DNA of 34,922 nucleotides from the NCBI GenBank assembly GCA_947490975.1, contig CANLHV010000003.1:1-34922 (forward strand), given 5' to 3'. The notes beneath the pieces are model-generated. The model saw only the letters and a program-made list of their open reading frames with translations, searched no databases and was not told the DNA's origin. This document shows, piece after piece, positions 3,368-28,174 of this stretch. Made by a program: the position numbers and the translations under genes. Within the stretch, counting starts at the first letter, position 1, and every line of letters begins with the position of its first letter. Source of the stretch: Acidimicrobiaceae bacterium (GTDB lineage: Bacteria; Actinomycetota; Acidimicrobiia; Acidimicrobiales; Ilumatobacteraceae).

Positions 3368-3682
3368 ATGGCACAGAGCATTCGCATCCGTCTAAAGGCG
3401 TTTGACCACCAGAACATCGACGATTCTGCAAAGAAGATCGTTGAGACTGTCACTCGTACGAGTGCCACAGTGCGTGGGCCGATACCTCTGCCGACTGACA
3501 AGCATCGTTTCACAGTTATTCGTGGACCACACGTTGACAAAGACTCGCGCGAACACTTTGAGATGCGCATTCATAAGCGCTTGATCGACATTGTTGACCC
3601 GAACGCAAAGACGATCGACAGTTTGCAGCGTTTAGAGTTGCCTGCCGGCGTTGACATCGAAATCAAGATTCAAAACGCTTAA
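3368..3682 (+). CDS. rpsJ: 30S ribosomal protein S10
   Basis: 104 aa; [45 protein letters not shown]. Confidence 0.98.
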
Positions 3683-3744: not shown

Positions 3745-4926
3745 ATGAGTGATTTCAACGAGAATTCGTCACAGTTGCCACCGCCACAGTTGCCTGTGCA
3801 ATCAGATTTGCCGTTGCAAAATTATGACGAAGCAGGTCGATCGCCGCGTCGTCGCTTTGGAGTGGTGCTTATTGCAGCAGTGTTTGGTTTATTTGGCGGA
3901 ATAATCGGCGCTTATGTTGCCCAAGAGGCAAATCTCGTTGACTTAGACAACTCAGATTCGACCACGCAGATAACTTCGGCGCCTGTTGTTGTAGCCGAAG
4001 ACGATGGTTTGTCTGGCGGTTCGTTGATCGCCCAAGTTGCTGAGCGATTAGCAAATAGTGTCGTCACAATTTCGACGACTGTGGATGACGACTTTGGCGG
4101 CGGTCGTGGCGTTGGCACAGGTGTTGTGTTGACATCTGATGGCGAAATTTTGACGAATGCTCACGTGATTGAAGATGCGACCGAAGTAGTAGTTCGATTT
4201 GCCGGAGAAACTGAGCCGCGAGTTGCAAAAATTCTTGCTTCAGATTTGGGCAACGATTTGGCATTGATCAAAGTTGATGTAACTGGACTAATCGCAGCAA
4301 CTTTTGCCAAGCCGGGCAGCGTGCAAATTGGCGACACAGTTGTTGCGATCGGTTATGCATTAGCGCTTGATGGCGGACCAACTGTTACGTCGGGCATCGT
4401 CTCGGCGTTAAAGCGAACGATTGAGACTGACTCAGGTGCATTAAACAGTTTGATTCAAACTGATGCCGCCATTTCATCGGGCAACTCGGGTGGACCATTG
4501 GTCAATCTCAAAGGCGAAGTTGTCGGCATCAACACAGCCGTAGCGCGAGGCGATTCTGAATCTGCAGCGAACAACATTGGATTTTCAATTTCGGTTGACG
4601 AAGTATTAATTGTCATCGAACAGTTGCGCGAGCAAGCAAAGGGCACAGTGCGTGAAGAGGGCTTTCTTGGAGTTGGTTTGGCTGCGCGCGAAGATGGTGG
4701 TCAGGGTGCAATCATCACCAACGTGCAACCAGGCTCACCAGCCGACAAGGCGGGCATTTTGATCGACGACGTCGTGCTTGCCGTAGATGGCGAGCCGATT
4801 GACGGCCAGGCAGGTTTGGTGGCGGCGATTCGAGATGCCGAGCCTGGTCAAACTGTCAAAATTGAGATTTTTCGAGACGGAGAAAGGCTCGTTTTTGAGG
4901 CAACTTTGATCGCTCGTTCTGAATAA
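3745..4926 (+). CDS. HtrA/DegP-like trypsin-family serine protease with N-terminal TM segment and C-terminal PDZ domain
   Basis: 393 aa; TM segment FGVVLIAAVFGLFGGIIGAYVA; triad motifs TNAHV, NDLALIKV, GNSGGPL; PDZ-like GFLGVGL...IITNVQPGSPADKAGI. Confidence 0.93.
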   Translation: MSDFNENSSQLPPPQLPVQSDLPLQNYDEAGRSPRRRFGVVLIAAVFGLFGGIIGAYVAQEANLVDLDNSDSTTQITSAPVVVAEDDGLSGGSLIAQVAERLANSVVTISTTVDDDFGGGRGVGTGVVLTSDGEILTNAHVIEDATEVVVRFAGETEPRVAKILASDLGNDLALIKVDVTGLIAATFAKPGSVQIGDTVVAIGYALALDGGPTVTSGIVSALKRTIETDSGALNSLIQTDAAISSGNSGGPLVNLKGEVVGINTAVARGDSESAANNIGFSISVDEVLIVIEQLREQAKGTVREEGFLGVGLAAREDGGQGAIITNVQPGSPADKAGILIDDVVLAVDGEPIDGQAGLVAAIRDAEPGQTVKIEIFRDGERLVFEATLIARSE

Positions 4927-5098: not shown

Positions 5099-5147
5099 GT
5101 GTGCGCCCAAGAGTTTTGTGGGTACCTCACAGCGAAAACTATAAGAG

Positions 5148-5176
5148 TGCTCCGTGCGGCCAAGGCCTGCGGAGCA
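5148..5176 (+). promoter_or_regulatory. GC-rich leader hairpin upstream of rplC
   Basis: TGCTCCG...CGGAGCA 7-bp stem enclosing an inner GGCC/GGCC pairing; no T run after it. Confidence 0.5.
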
Positions 5177-5232
5177 TTTGTGCGAATAAACGAATTATTT
5201 CATTAAACATTTCGAGAAAAGGTTTTGGCCTT

Positions 5233-5892
5233 ATGGCACAAAAAGCGATCGTCGGCGAAAAGGTCGGCATGACACAGGTGTGGGGAGACGACCAACGCGT
5301 CGTGCCCGTAACAGTGTTGCGCATAGAGCCAGCCCGAATTGTGCAAGTCAAAACAGGTCTGACTGATGGATACACGGCGTTGCAAGTCACTTACGGACAA
5401 CGCGATGCAAAGAAGCTAAACAAAGCAGAAGCTGGCCATTTCGCACCAAAGAGCGGCGTACGAAACGTTGCCGCGGGTCGTCGACTTGTTGAGTTGCGAC
5501 TTGATTCTGTTGAGGGTTTTGAAATTGGCCAAGAAATTAAAGTTGACACGCTTGCAGTTGGCGAGCGAGTTGACGTAACGGCTGTAAGTCGTGGTAAAGG
5601 TTTTGCCGGCACCATGAAGCGCCACAATTTCGGTGGTCAAGGTGCGAGTCACGGTAACCACAAGCACCATCGTGCACCAGGCTCGATTGGCTCATGCACA
5701 TTTCCGGGTCGCGTTTTCAAAGGTTTGCGCATGTCGGGTCACATGGGTCACCAACAGGTAACAACTTTGAATCTTGAAGTTGTGCAAGCAGATCTTGAGC
5801 GCAATTTGTTGCTCGTCAAAGGTTCAGTTCCTGGTCCAAACGGTGGCGTCGTAATCATTCGTAACGCTGTCAAGGGTGCGGTCAAGGAGTAG
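5233..5892 (+). CDS. rplC: 50S ribosomal protein L3
   Basis: Start reassigned to ATG 5233 (MAQKAIVGEKVGMTQVW); GQGASHGNHKHHRAPGSIG motif. Confidence 0.96.
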   Translation: MAQKAIVGEKVGMTQVWGDDQRVVPVTVLRIEPARIVQVKTGLTDGYTALQVTYGQRDAKKLNKAEAGHFAPKSGVRNVAAGRRLVELRLDSVEGFEIGQEIKVDTLAVGERVDVTAVSRGKGFAGTMKRHNFGGQGASHGNHKHHRAPGSIGSCTFPGRVFKGLRMSGHMGHQQVTTLNLEVVQADLERNLLLVKGSVPGPNGGVVIIRNAVKGAVKE

Positions 5893-21857: not shown

Positions 21858-23216
21858 ATGTTGACATTTGGTACCGACGGAGTTCGCGGAGAGTTTGGCA
21901 AAGAACTGACCGAAACTTATGCAGCCAATCTTGCTGAAGTGGCGGCACAAATACTGCAATGCAAGAAAGTTGTAATCGGTCGAGATACTCGCGAATCTGG
22001 GTCAGCGCTTGAGGATGCGATAGCCGAGGCGCTGACACGAATTGGCGTCGAAGTTCAATTGATGGGTGTTGCCCCGACGCCAGCGATTGCGTTTGCTGCC
22101 CACAAGCATGATGTGGTTGCGATCGCGATTACAGCGTCACACAACTTGTTTCAAGACAACGGAATCAAGATTTTTGTCGGGGGCGGGCTCAAGCTTTCGG
22201 ATGATCAGCAAGCAAGCATTGAACGAGAAATGATTGCCCGCGATTCTGCGGTGCGTGATGGGGCGAGGACCAAAAGCGACGCGTCTAACAAAATCGCATC
22301 GGATAACAAAAAATTAGTGGCGGAGCGACCAGAACTTTTGCGGGAATACTGCGACTGGCTAGTTGATTTGGCGCCACGCGATGCGTTCAAGAATTTGCAT
22401 GTCGCCCTAGATTGCGCCAACGGTGCCTTTAGTTATGTGGCGCCAGAAGTATTTTCAAAACTTGGGGCAACTGTAACAACAGTCAACGCGACACCCGATG
22501 GTCGGAATATCAATTTGCAATGTGGCGCGACGCATCCGTCCGCGTTGGTTGAGGTCGTCAAAAGCGTCGGAGCAAACTTTGGTGTTGCCTTTGACGGAGA
22601 TGGGGACAGATTGATTGCAGTCGACGATAAGGGACAGATTGTCGATGGAGATCACTTGTTGGCGATAAGCGCATTAGATATGAAAACGCAAGGCACGCTG
22701 CGTGGCAACAAAGTAGTGGTGACAGTGATGACCAACATTGGTTTTCACAAAGCGATGAAGAGTGCAGGCATCGAGGTATTAACCACGCCTGTTGGTGACA
22801 GATCAGTTTTGCTCGCGCTCGAAGAGAATTCGCTTTCGTTGGGTGGCGAACAGAGTGGACACATTATCTATCGAGACTTCGCGACAACGGGCGATGGTTT
22901 GCTTGCCGCCATAAAACTCGCGGCTGTTGTTGTGGAAAGTAAAAAAACTTTGAACGAGGTTGCCGTTAATGCGATGACTAGTTTTCCTCAGGTTCTGGTT
23001 AACTTGCGTATCGCCAAGCGAGTTGAAGGTGTCGATTCAATTTTTAGAAGCGAGATTGAGGCGGCAGAGAAAGCTCTCGGTGAGAGTGGTCGAGTATTGG
23101 TGCGAGCAAGTGGCACAGAGCCGATGGTGCGAGTGATGGTCGAGGCACCACAACAAGAAGTTGCTGAACAGGTTGCTGCAACATTGGCCGATGCGATTTC
23201 TGCGCGACTCGGCTGA
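21858..23216 (+). CDS. glmM: Phosphoglucosamine mutase
   Basis: 452 aa; FGTDGVRGEFG, ITASHNLFQDNGIKIF, FDGDGDR, RASGTEPMVRVMVEA. Confidence 0.97.
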   Translation: MLTFGTDGVRGEFGKELTETYAANLAEVAAQILQCKKVVIGRDTRESGSALEDAIAEALTRIGVEVQLMGVAPTPAIAFAAHKHDVVAIAITASHNLFQDNGIKIFVGGGLKLSDDQQASIEREMIARDSAVRDGARTKSDASNKIASDNKKLVAERPELLREYCDWLVDLAPRDAFKNLHVALDCANGAFSYVAPEVFSKLGATVTTVNATPDGRNINLQCGATHPSALVEVVKSVGANFGVAFDGDGDRLIAVDDKGQIVDGDHLLAISALDMKTQGTLRGNKVVVTVMTNIGFHKAMKSAGIEVLTTPVGDRSVLLALEENSLSLGGEQSGHIIYRDFATTGDGLLAAIKLAAVVVESKKTLNEVAVNAMTSFPQVLVNLRIAKRVEGVDSIFRSEIEAAEKALGESGRVLVRASGTEPMVRVMVEAPQQEVAEQVAATLADAISARLG

Positions 23217-23243: not shown

Positions 23244-26200
23244 ATGTGCGGCATCATCTGTGTGCTCAGTCGAAAGACGCGACGAGCAACCCCGACCGCA
23301 AGCGAAATCTTGGCTCTTCTTGATGGCGCCCTTGAAGCAGGCGCCAAGAGCGATATTGATCAACTTGCACAGGCGGTGACCACTGCTGACAAGCTTTTGC
23401 GCGGTGACGCTGGTCAATTGTGCATGGCTGATAATCACCAGTTGATTGCTGCGATGACATCACGAATTGATCAACTCGATGCAATCGTTATCGCTTACGA
23501 GCAATTGATCGAAAAATCGGCAGGCCTGCAAACCGAGTCATCACAACATGCGCTGCAAGAGATTATTCGTGCCAAAGATGCCATTTGGGAGTTGCGCAAT
23601 GATCGCATTCGCACGGCAAAACTTGTTGACGCTTTGGCTGGGCAAGGTGCTTCAGAGTCGGCACGCAGCGGTTATTTCTCGATTCAGCAAGCGTTCTCAG
23701 GTTTAGACCGCCTCGAGGTTCGCGGCCGCGACTCAGCCGGCATTCATGTGCTTGTTTCGAACCACGGACTGAAGGCGACCGACAAACAAGTAAAAGCGCT
23801 TTTGGCGAACCGCAGTGAAGACGCACTGTTTATGTCTGGTTCTGTACGCATGACAGAGAATGCGTGGTCATTTGTATATAAAGCCGCCGCAGAAATCGGC
23901 GAACTTGGCGACAACACGCGTGTGATGCGCAACGCCGTAGTTGCTGACGCATTGCTGCGACTTTGCATTTCTCAACCGAACTCACAAGTTGCAGTTTTGG
24001 CGCACACGCGATGGGCAAGTGTTGGCATTATTTCTGAACCCAATGCTCACCCGGTGAATAGCGAAGAGCTTGAAGGCAAACATGATGACGCATACCTAGT
24101 TGCTGCATTGAACGGCGACGTTGACAACCACGCCGACTTGCGAGTGCAATATGGATTGCGTGTCGCTGGACCGATAACAACAGATGCAAAAGTTATCCCT
24201 GCGTTGGTTTCACGCAGGTTGGCGACGACGAACAATTTGACTGACGCATTTCGTGAAACGGTTGCGCAGTTTGAAGGTTCAGTTGCGATTGCTGTTGCCA
24301 GTGCAACAGAGCCCGACAAGTTGTTGTTGGCTCTGCACGGCAGCGGACAGGGATTATGCATTGGCCTTGCTGAAGATCGGTTTGTTGTTGCCAGCGAGCC
24401 ATATGGTTTGGTCGAAGAAACACTTAATTATGTGCGAATGGACGGCGAGGCGCTCGCAGATCTAGATAATCCGTCGAGCAGGGGTCAAGTTGTCACTTTG
24501 TCTGGCGCAAATGCCGGAGACCTTTCGGGTGTGCAGTTGATTTCTTACGACGGGCGTGAAATTGAATTGGGCAAAGACAAAGTTTTGACTGCAGAGATAA
24601 CAACACGCGACATCAATCGTGGCGAGCATAAACACTTCTTGGCCAAAGAGATTGCTGAGGCGCCAGAGAGTTTTAGAAAGACAATTCGCGGTCGGATTGT
24701 CGAGCAAAATGGCATGTTGACAACCGAATTGGGCGAGAATGTTTTGCCGAAAGCAATTTGTGAACGTTTGGCATCGGGTGAAATTGCGAAGGTTCGTGTA
24801 ATCGGCCAAGGAACTGCCGCAGTCGCAGGCCAAGCATTGGCCAAGTTGTTGAATGAATTAGTTGGCATCGGCTTGAGCGCAGAAGCTCTGCTGGCAAGTG
24901 AGCTTTCGGGTTTTGGTTTGCAACTTGATATGAGTGACACGCTCGTTGTTGCGGTGAGTCAAAGTGGCACGACGACCGACACGAACCGCACGGTCGACTT
25001 AGCGCGTGCCCGTGGTGCGAGTGTTTTGGCGATTGTCAATCGTCGCGGCAGTGAACTCTCGGCAAAAGCAGATGGCGTGATGTATACGTCTGATGGTCGC
25101 GATGTTGAAATGAGCGTCGCTAGTACCAAAGCGTTTTATGCCCAAGTTGCTGCTGGCGCACTTTATGCCTGTGCGATATCGAAAGCGCTCGGCAAGTCTT
25201 CTGATCGAGCACGACACGAACTTTTGGCGGGCTTGCGCTCGATACCCGATGCGCTTGTCGAGGTTTTGACAACTCGACCAGCGATTGCTGCGGCAGCCAA
25301 GCAGTTTGCTTCGTCACGCCGCTATTGGACTGTGGTCGGCAATGGCATGAATTTGATTGCGGCGCAAGAAGTGCGAATCAAATTGTCGGAGCTTTGTTAT
25401 AAGTCGATTTCGAGTGACTCGACTGAAGATAAAAAACACATTGACTTGTCGTGTGAGCCATTAATTTTTGTTTGCGCAACCGGATTGCTTGAGGGCAATG
25501 CATCAGATGTGGCAAAAGAGATTGCGATCTATCGTGCCCACAAAGCTCTGCCGATCGTTGTCGCCACTGCAGGTCAGACACGATTCGATGCCGCTGCAGC
25601 AGTGTTGCTTGTGCCAAATGTAGAGACGCATCTGGCATTTATCTTGAGCGTGATGGTTGGACACTTGTTTGGCTACGAGGCGGCTTTGGCGATTGACGCA
25701 CTTGCACGACCTTTGCGCGAAGCACGCGAAGTTGTTGAGCACGCAGTCGAACGTGGTGGTGACGCAAACAAGTTGTTAGAAAAGATTCGCACAGAATTAG
25801 GCGCACCAGCGACTCGATTTACAGATGCGCTCGCCACCGGAAATTACGACGGCAATTTAGAAGCCAGCACGGCGGTGCGAATCGTGACGATGTTGCGTGA
25901 CACATTGGCCAGCGACCCCGTGCAGGCGTATCAACGCAGTTCGGGCAAAATCGCTTCGCCAGAATTGTTGCTCGATGATTTGACGAGTGCTTTGACACGC
26001 GGTGTCGATGAATTGACGCGCCCAGTTGATGCGATCAAACATCAAGCCAAGACCGTGACTGTGGGTATTTCACGTAGCGACGAAGGTTTGTTTGATCGCA
26101 AGTTGGTTAAGTCGTTACTCGAAGCAGGTGTGGCGCGCGAGCGACTTTCGTATCGTGTGTTGAAGATTGTGGCTGATTTAGATGCTGCAGTTAGCGCGGT

Positions 26201-26654
26201 GACTGGTTTTACGCGGTACCAAATTGAAGGCGATATTGCGGGTGGTTCGGCGACGATAGCAATTGTTGACCGCGGCGGAATGTCGAAGAACTTGACTTCG
26301 CGAGTTGATCGCAATTCACAACTTGTGGGCACCAAACGTCGCGTAGCGAGCGACCAAGAAGTTCTCGTAGCGCGAGGGCGAAGCGATAACCGAACGGTGA
26401 TAATGGTGCCTGAGACCAAGGGTGGTCAGACCACTGGCATCACTTTGCTGCATGTGATGTTTCATGATCGTTTGCCAGCAACAGCGATGCGAGCGGTATT
26501 GCAGGGCTACGACCGCAGATATGACCGACTTGTTGACTGGGTTACAGAAACCGAAGGCGCATTTAGAGAAGATCGTCTTGCTGAAGTTTCGGTTGCCGAC
26601 TTGTTGATTTTGCCGATCAGCGATATGGCTGACCACTGGCGCCCGACGAAGTAG
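23244..26654 (+). CDS. Enlarged GlmS-like protein: N-terminal class II glutamine amidotransferase domain with insertion, two SIS domains, unidentified C-terminal extension
   Basis: MCGII N-terminus; RGRDSAG, AHTRWAS, ALNGDVDNH; HFLAKEIAEAPES linker; SIS motifs VSQSGTTTDT and VASTKAF; KLSE/KKH in the second SIS; directly follows glmM. Confidence 0.85.
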   Translation: MCGIICVLSRKTRRATPTASEILALLDGALEAGAKSDIDQLAQAVTTADKLLRGDAGQLCMADNHQLIAAMTSRIDQLDAIVIAYEQLIEKSAGLQTESSQHALQEIIRAKDAIWELRNDRIRTAKLVDALAGQGASESARSGYFSIQQAFSGLDRLEVRGRDSAGIHVLVSNHGLKATDKQVKALLANRSEDALFMSGSVRMTENAWSFVYKAAAEIGELGDNTRVMRNAVVADALLRLCISQPNSQVAVLAHTRWASVGIISEPNAHPVNSEELEGKHDDAYLVAALNGDVDNHADLRVQYGLRVAGPITTDAKVIPALVSRRLATTNNLTDAFRETVAQFEGSVAIAVASATEPDKLLLALHGSGQGLCIGLAEDRFVVASEPYGLVEETLNYVRMDGEALADLDNPSSRGQVVTLSGANAGDLSGVQLISYDGREIELGKDKVLTAEITTRDINRGEHKHFLAKEIAEAPESFRKTIRGRIVEQNGMLTTELGENVLPKAICERLASGEIAKVRVIGQGTAAVAGQALAKLLNELVGIGLSAEALLASELSGFGLQLDMSDTLVVAVSQSGTTTDTNRTVDLARARGASVLAIVNRRGSELSAKADGVMYTSDGRDVEMSVASTKAFYAQVAAGALYACAISKALGKSSDRARHELLAGLRSIPDALVEVLTTRPAIAAAAKQFASSRRYWTVVGNGMNLIAAQEVRIKLSELCYKSISSDSTEDKKHIDLSCEPLIFVCATGLLEGNASDVAKEIAIYRAHKALPIVVATAGQTRFDAAAAVLLVPNVETHLAFILSVMVGHLFGYEAALAIDALARPLREAREVVEHAVERGGDANKLLEKIRTELGAPATRFTDALATGNYDGNLEASTAVRIVTMLRDTLASDPVQAYQRSSGKIASPELLLDDLTSALTRGVDELTRPVDAIKHQAKTVTVGISRSDEGLFDRKLVKSLLEAGVARERLSYRVLKIVADLDAAVSAVTGFTRYQIEGDIAGGSATIAIVDRGGMSKNLTSRVDRNSQLVGTKRRVASDQEVLVARGRSDNRTVIMVPETKGGQTTGITLLHVMFHDRLPATAMRAVLQGYDRRYDRLVDWVTETEGAFREDRLAEVSVADLLILPISDMADHWRPTK

Positions 26655-26656
26655 GC

Positions 26657-27025
26657 GTGATGATTGGCTTGGGTATTGATGCAGTCAACGTGCATCGGTT
26701 TCGTGAAGCCCTAGATCGAACACCAAATTTGCGCACTCGTATTTTTACCGCTGCCGAACTTGAGTCGCTCGCAAGTCGTGCCGATAGTGCACCGAGTTTG
26801 GCTGTTCGTTTTGCGGCTCGAGAGGCGACGATGAAAGCACTTGGCGTCGGGCTCGGGGCTTTTGATCTGCACGATGTTTCGATCCGTAATTCTGAAAGTG
26901 GTTCTCCTGAATTGATCGTTACAGGACGAGCAGCAGAACTTGCACAGACACGAGGTGTGAAAAGTTGGCTTGTTTCGCTTTCGCACACCGACGACACCGC
27001 TATTGCTGTTGTCGCGAGCAACTGA
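26657..27025 (+). CDS. acpS: Holo-[acyl-carrier-protein] synthase
   Basis: MIGLGIDAVNVHRFREAL, RFAAREATMKALG, VSLSHTDDTAIAVV. Confidence 0.93.
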   Translation: MMIGLGIDAVNVHRFREALDRTPNLRTRIFTAAELESLASRADSAPSLAVRFAAREATMKALGVGLGAFDLHDVSIRNSESGSPELIVTGRAAELAQTRGVKSWLVSLSHTDDTAIAVVASN

Positions 27026-27040
27026 GCGAAAAGTTCACTG

Positions 27041-28174
27041 ATGAGTTCGACAAATCGATGGGCTTGGGTTGAAGTTGACCTGGCGGCCATAAAGGCGAAC
27101 GTTGCGGGGCTTGTCAAACAAGCTGGGTCGTCACAACTTTGGGCAACCGTGAAGGCGAATGGTTACGGGCACGGAGCAGTTGAGGTTGCACGCGCCGCAT
27201 TGAACGCAGGAGCAAGCGGTTTGTGCGTGGCGTTGGCCGATGAAGCTCACGAATTGCGCGAGGCGAAAATTGCTGCACCGATTTTGATCGTGAGCGAGCA
27301 ACCTGAAGCTGCCTTTGAGCAAATGTTGCATGACGATGTGGCGGCAACCGTTTATAACGAGGCGACTATTAACAATTATGCGGCTGTTGCCAAGCGTCTC
27401 GGAGTTGTTGGCAAGGTGCATTTAAAAGTTGATACCGGTATGCATCGAGTTGGTGCGCCAGTTGATTCGGCGATAGCGCGCATTGAGCAGATAAGTGCTC
27501 TGAGTTCTTTGCAACTCGATGGTATTTACACACACTTTGCGGCCGCCGACTTGCCGAGCCATGACGAGACTGACAAACAGCAGCAGCGATTTGACGGGAT
27601 TGTTGCTGAATTAGATCGCAAAGGGTTGCGACCGAAATTTGTGCATACTTCGAATTCGGCAGCTCTACTGCGAAATCTGAACTCAAAGACTGACATCGTG
27701 CGAGTTGGTATTGCGATTTACGGAATTGCGCCGAGCAATGAAACCGAAGATGTAGCCAGTCGTTTACGGCCTGCGATGTCGCTACATGCTCGAGTGAGCC
27801 ATGTGCAACGACTTAGCGCTGGCGAAGGTATTTCGTATGGTCTGCGTACGAGATTAGAAAAATCAGCGAATATCGCCACATTGCCACTCGGTTATGCCGA
27901 TGGCGTGCCACGCCGCTTGTGGCGTGTTGGCGGTGAAGTTTTAATCGGCGGTAAGCGTTGCCCAATTGTTGGTGTCGTGACGATGGATCAAATGATGGTT
28001 AACTGCGGAGACCTTGAAGTGAACATTGGTGACCGAGCAGTTTTGCTTGGCGCACAAAAAAGCGAATCTATTTCGGCAAACGAAATTGCGACTCGCCTTG
28101 AAACAATTGGTTACGAAATAGTCTGCGGTATCAGCGCGCGAATGCCACGCGTTTATGTCGAAAACAAAGCGTAG
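27041..28174 (+). CDS. alr: Alanine racemase
   Basis: 377 aa; WVEVDLAAIKANV, ATVKANGYGHGAVEVA, GYADGVPRRL. Confidence 0.97.
   Translation: MSSTNRWAWVEVDLAAIKANVAGLVKQAGSSQLWATVKANGYGHGAVEVARAALNAGASGLCVALADEAHELREAKIAAPILIVSEQPEAAFEQMLHDDVAATVYNEATINNYAAVAKRLGVVGKVHLKVDTGMHRVGAPVDSAIARIEQISALSSLQLDGIYTHFAAADLPSHDETDKQQQRFDGIVAELDRKGLRPKFVHTSNSAALLRNLNSKTDIVRVGIAIYGIAPSNETEDVASRLRPAMSLHARVSHVQRLSAGEGISYGLRTRLEKSANIATLPLGYADGVPRRLWRVGGEVLIGGKRCPIVGVVTMDQMMVNCGDLEVNIGDRAVLLGAQKSESISANEIATRLETIGYEIVCGISARMPRVYVENKA

Follow-up and report, generated by a model that had tools for sequence, protein, structure and literature searches.

GlmS (glucosamine-6-phosphate synthase) yields the first amino sugar used for the cell wall. 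It catalyzes the committed step in the synthesis of UDP-N-acetylglucosamine (UDP-GlcNAc) and the cell wall, and the ways in which it is regulated vary widely among organisms, from a riboswitch-ribozyme and small RNAs to allostery. The DNA of an Acidimicrobiaceae bacterium analyzed here (GenBank assembly GCA_947490975.1, contig CANLHV010000003.1, positions 1 to 34,922; the whole 34,922-nucleotide stretch is referred to as the window) contains, directly after glmM, an unbroken open reading frame (ORF; positions 23244–26654, forward strand) that codes for a GlmS homolog of 1136 amino acids starting with MCGII. The question raised by this locus is whether such an enlarged protein is a working GlmS and what its additional residues might do. 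The answer that we consider rather probable is that it represents the working, essential GlmS of a large part of the class Acidimicrobiia, with an extra domain that is most likely allosteric.

The long protein retains the catalytic residues of GlmS

An earlier note, made from the letters of the window, had described the ORF as an oversized GlmS homolog with two SIS domains located directly after glmM, and this description held up. The upstream gene (21858–23216, forward strand), coding for the next step of the pathway, scored 458.6 bits and exceeded the cut-off of TIGR01455, while the GlmS motifs RGRDSAG, AHTRWAS, and ALNG were located at residues 160–166, 253–259, and 288–291 of the long protein, respectively. 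NCBIfam glmS models aligned to its residues 226–816, and TIGR01135 and NF001484 were the sole model matches at an E value of 1e-20 for all 30 long forms scanned. Although only the GATase and the first SIS domain (SIS1) passed the Pfam cut-off, both SIS domains are present, because the glmS models span residues 226–816 and Foldseek aligned the AlphaFold model to the whole of Escherichia coli GlmS (Protein Data Bank [PDB]: 2j6h), with a template modeling (TM) score of 0.82 by target length. The core of the model matched human GFAT-1 as well.

Residues were compared with an E. coli GlmS reference sequence; PDB chains of the E. coli enzyme gave the same core alignment, spanning residues 243–815. 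The equivalents of 12 catalytic and ammonia-transfer residues (C1, R73, W74, N98, G99, D123, Q348, E481, K485, E488, H504, and K603 in E. coli numbering) were conserved without exception in 48 long forms, among them the N-terminal nucleophile cysteine C1 (codon 23247–23249, forward strand), and the isomerase residues S347, S349, and T352 were likewise found in the long protein. Glu488, His504, and Lys603, which are the isomerization residues of GlmS (PMC9272926), correspond to E716, H732, and K936. Trp74 forms the ammonia channel of canonical GlmS together with the C-tail (PMC7948480). The long GlmS is accompanied by GlmM and a GlmU-type uridylyltransferase. The long form is very probably a GlmS, that is, a glutamine:fructose-6-phosphate amidotransferase.

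Architecture and conservation of the additional sequence

Canonical GlmS (TIGR01135; E. coli, PDB: 2j6h and 1jxa) shares with the long form the order of Ntn (N-terminal nucleophile) glutaminase, SIS1, SIS2, and catalytic C-tail, the catalytic residues, and the genomic slot, but it comprises about 610 residues and ends with the tail, whereas the long form adds insertions of ~133, 32, and ~107 residues and a 195-residue extension, and is only ~30% identical to the canonical GlmS of Acidimicrobiia. Segment boundaries were taken from the alignment to E. coli GlmS, and all segments lie on the forward strand. The N-terminal insert (residues 13–145, 133 amino acids; 23280–23678) places five to six predicted helices between the first strand and the first helix of the glutaminase fold. 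The glutaminase (Ntn GATase) core (residues 146–440; 23679–24563) holds R160-G161-D163, R256-W257, N290-G291, and D314, and includes the small extra insert (residues 174–205; 23763–23858). The isomerase half, composed of the two SIS domains (residues 450–816; 24591–25691), contains S572-Q573-S574-T577, E709, K713, E716, and H732. It is followed by a helical linker insert (residues 817–923, 107 amino acids; 25692–26012) that separates the last SIS helix from the catalytic C-tail (residues 924–941; 26013–26066), in which K936 (codon 26049–26051) aligns with E. coli Lys603. The C-terminal extension (residues 942–1136; 26067–26651) is predicted to form a PAS/GAF-like domain, followed by C-terminal helices. 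With some smaller insertions besides these large ones, the sequence added to that of E. coli GlmS amounts to ~500 residues in total. The catalytic tail, which terminates the E. coli enzyme (‘NLAKSVTVE’), is internal in the long form (‘HQAKTVTVGISR’, residues 933–944), with 195 residues lying beyond it.

The extra segments were found in every full-length long form, and their length was nearly constant. Residues 926–950, the tail segment, were the most conserved part of the long form (mean identity of 89%), and the N-terminal insert was the least conserved one (mean identity of 34%). When the window gene was compared with the four closest relatives tested, the proportion of nonsynonymous differences (pN) in the C-terminal extension was 0.03–0.07, equal to or lower than that in the catalytic core, while the corresponding synonymous proportion (pS) was near-saturated, so the dN/dS ratios are rough. 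Purifying selection acts on the extension no less strongly than on the catalytic core, and scattered along the extension are invariant charged residues (R965, R991, K1031, D1048, R1050, and E1057). The earlier note had taken the extra sequence of the unbroken ORF for real coding sequence; its recurrence among genomes and the purifying selection on it confirm that this is so for the extra ~500 residues.

Replacement of canonical GlmS by the long form in many Acidimicrobiia

Among 148 sampled Acidimicrobiia genomes, 57 encoded the long form (~1120–1165 residues), 80 the canonical form (~610 residues), and none both, while 11 had no match at an E value of 1e-20, 10 of them belonging to a single small-genome family (f14). 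By families, the long form occurred in 19 of 36 and the canonical one in 17, none being mixed. The long form is present in single-contig genomes (e.g., G002, G027, G110, and G003) and also in the complete chromosome of Aquihabitans sp. G128. The earlier note had left open whether a normal-length glmS exists elsewhere in the genome of the window; in this draft genome (1.27 megabases, 86% complete), we found no GlmS besides the 1136-residue protein. When 21 long-form genomes were scanned with the glmS model, 20 of them also lacked canonical GlmS; in the exception, G188 (estimated contamination of 5%), the canonical GlmS lies at the glmM locus and the long GlmS away from glmM. Furthermore, NagB gave no match in 6 of 10 long-form genomes (G027, G071, G039, G035, G048, and G003) and exceeded its cut-off in one of the 10; the long GlmS is therefore probably the sole de novo source of glucosamine 6-phosphate in those six. 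Among 347 genomes of the phylum, the C-terminal extension was found in 29. The frame that carried it either had the size of a GlmS or was shorter and taken for a fragment at a contig edge, and the extension never occurred as a standalone protein. No plasmid-borne match covered 80% of the query. We regard the long GlmS as the working enzyme of these lineages, and its catalytic role has good support.

At nearly all loci of the class that were examined, with the exception of that in G040, the long and canonical forms share one slot, truA-rplM-rpsI-glmM-GlmS-acpS/alr, and in the window the conserved downstream neighbors acpS and alr occupy positions 26657–28174 (forward strand). That the two forms are interchangeable is the best indirect evidence for the long form doing the job of GlmS. 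Neither a glmS ribozyme nor any other Rfam element was detected within the window. In the GlmS tree, the long forms made up one clade, whose parent lineage within GlmS was not placed, the branch leading to it being at the model limit (length of 10). On the best tree of neighboring genes, the distribution of the two forms needs five changes, at least two of which are forced by well-supported branches, so that the essential gene seems to have been exchanged in situ, through either transfer or the sorting of two ancient copies. The long form was also met outside the class (G181, G188, G321, and the f72 group), and the long forms from there nest within those of Acidimicrobiia, which suggests that they were acquired by transfer; the gene adjoins glmM in G181 and G321 but not in the f72 group or G188. 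In several f72 genomes (L195, L196, and L199), it is found near a recN-like gene. Some canonical GlmS proteins in the order to which the window belongs sit on very long branches (G014 [f2, L063] and G047 [f4, L068]), suggesting relaxed or altered constraint.

Predicted structure of the extra segments and a possible regulatory mechanism

The full-length AlphaFold2 model, built with 52 natural homologs as the input, had a mean predicted local distance difference test score (pLDDT) of 86.9 and a predicted TM score of 0.77. Both the N-terminal insert and the 817–923 linker were purely helical in the model. The loop comprising residues 935–947, which carries K936, had a pLDDT below 50 though it lies in the most conserved segment, and this low confidence is consistent with a mobile catalytic loop that would become ordered upon binding of a substrate or partner. 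Modeled alone, the C-terminal extension reached a pLDDT of 90, with strands at residues 983–995, 1004–1012, 1041–1044, 1051–1059, and 1062–1073. Its elements follow the order strand-strand-helices-strand-strand-strand expected of a PAS/GAF domain, which refers to the order of elements only and not to the pairing of strands in the sheet. Foldseek returned the large glutamate dehydrogenase of Mycobacterium smegmatis (L-GDH180; PDB: 7jsr) as the top match of the extension (E value of 3e-4), followed by numerous PAS, GAF, Cache, and LOV domains with E values of 0.007–0.04, and no viral structure below 0.001. We infer that the predicted fold of the extension is closest to PAS/GAF sensor domains, the label PAS/GAF-like denoting fold only, because a relation at the level of sequence was not found.

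Two known enzymes are instructive here. Human GFAT-1 (PDB: 6r4e and others) is also an enlarged GlmS with the GlmS-type core and is regulated allosterically by UDP-GlcNAc (PMC7000685, PMC8041777), but it has about 680 residues, other insertions, and no C-terminal extension, and the regulation of the long form is putative. L-GDH180, the best fold match of the extension, is a mycobacterial enzyme regulated by PAS/ACT domains (PMC8175468), yet its catalytic core is unrelated to GlmS and its sequence is not significantly related to that of the extension.

The proposal that the ORF is a lineage-specific GlmS with added regulatory or assembly functions, as the earlier note had put it, is thus borne out with respect to the architecture, while the added function is suggested by the PAS/GAF-like predicted fold. 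In the sequence searches of the noncanonical segments, which it had called for, neither Pfam nor PDB sequences convincingly matched a known domain to the inserts, the N-terminal insert hitting designed, coiled-coil, or other helical proteins only. We slightly favor a sensory or regulatory role of the extension. Several results weigh against an allosterically regulated GlmS. In the core, the equivalent of T76 is always Ser and that of H77 is Val, Ile, or Met across the long forms, and the window protein scores below the curated cut-offs (247 of 418 bits for TIGR01135 and 275 of 381 for NF001484), as do the other long forms scored with the glmS model against the equivalog cut-off of TIGR01135. 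In the extension, the fold matches superpose weakly (TM score of about 0.2–0.4), with one protein only below an E value of 0.001, Pfam and PDB sequence searches did not support a relation to PAS/GAF domains, and a profile comparison with large glutamate dehydrogenase by hhalign was not significant.

In the mechanism that we envisage, the N-terminal cysteine would hydrolyze glutamine and the ammonia would travel via the channel, whereupon the SIS domains and the tail lysine K936 would convert fructose 6-phosphate into glucosamine 6-phosphate. The K936 tail, a free C terminus in normal GlmS, would here be held between the helical linker and the PAS/GAF-like domain. Binding of a metabolite or partner, plausible ligands being UDP-GlcNAc, another nucleotide, or a phosphorylated metabolite, could shift the sensor domain and thereby alter the ordering of the catalytic tail, so that sugar isomerization and ammonia transfer would be gated. 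Residues R965, R991, K1031, D1048, R1050, and E1057 could make a putative pocket for a phosphorylated ligand, and the N-terminal helical insert may aid domain assembly or coupling. The complete scheme, in which a PAS/GAF-like sensor joined to the catalytic C-tail pulls or orders the lysine loop upon metabolite binding and provides self-contained feedback in an enzyme repeatedly swapped with ordinary GlmS, is put forward tentatively.

Alternative explanations

Instead of sensing metabolites, the extra segments of a true GlmS might serve assembly or protein contacts, for example within the oligomer or in a complex with GlmM or GlmU. The purely helical N-terminal insert and linker, the fast divergence of that insert, which is often seen in contact modules, and the adjacency of glmM would all agree with this, but the strong conservation of the C-terminal extension, its invariant charged residues, and its sensor-type predicted fold suit ligand binding better, and we consider a pure contact role unlikely. 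A bifunctional fusion, in which the extension is a second enzyme such as the glucosamine acetyltransferase absent from the GlmU of the window's order, is highly improbable. It draws on this GlmU stopping short of the acetyltransferase site and on very weak Pfam matches to GNAT (E value of 0.04) in two members; however, a long GlmS coexists with a complete GlmU in G003, G048, G020, and G301, a short GlmU with a canonical GlmS in G014, G055, and G134, and no acetyltransferase is among the fold matches listed for the extension. More generally, short GlmU also occurs in canonical-GlmS families of the order and complete GlmU in most long-GlmS families outside it, and we rejected a GNAT-type replacement of the GlmU half because long GlmS and short GlmU do not go together.

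The earlier note had also considered a paralog with altered activity. The scores below the curated glmS cut-offs and the 86% completeness of the window genome would allow a paralog with another function and a true GlmS missing from the assembly, but single-contig, 99%-complete long-form genomes lack canonical GlmS too. Because no canonical GlmS coexists with it, the catalytic residues are invariant, and the long form occupies the glmS locus in its place, this interpretation does not fit, and its chance is even slimmer than that of the fusion enzyme. As to an assembly or sequencing error that joined separate ORFs, nothing but the unusual length speaks for it. It is refuted, to the point of a negligible residual probability, because the same architecture recurs in 57 of the 148 Acidimicrobiia genomes, spanning many assemblies, as well as in the complete chromosome of Aquihabitans sp. 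G128; moreover, the family-wide tail motif falls inside the supposed joined region.

Other observations

Throughout the order of the window, whether the genome has a long or a canonical GlmS, GlmU stops near model position 344 of 452 and does not reach the acetyltransferase active site (G000:C9:221-1306, L186; homologs L187–L191), and a search of the order for a separate copy of the missing half yielded just generic hexapeptide proteins. In the window itself, a gene for an HtrA-like trypsin/PDZ protease (3745–4926) lies inside the S10 ribosomal protein cluster, between rpsJ (3368–3682) and rplC (5101–5892).

Significance

We found no description of a long GlmS in the literature searched on glmS in Acidimicrobiia, Acidimicrobiales, or Actinobacteria. 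Neither a known long GlmS family nor an assembly error, the two outcomes that the earlier note had named as fatal to its proposal, was encountered. The architecture is clearly of the GlmS type and undescribed in the literature searched. A whole clade of Actinomycetota runs the committed step with a GlmS of unannotated architecture, which model-based annotation would not call glmS because its scores miss the curated cut-offs. The in situ swaps with canonical GlmS offer natural pairs for probing the role of the extra 500 residues, and, if the tethered sensor works as proposed, it would constitute a new way of controlling an amidotransferase via its catalytic tail.
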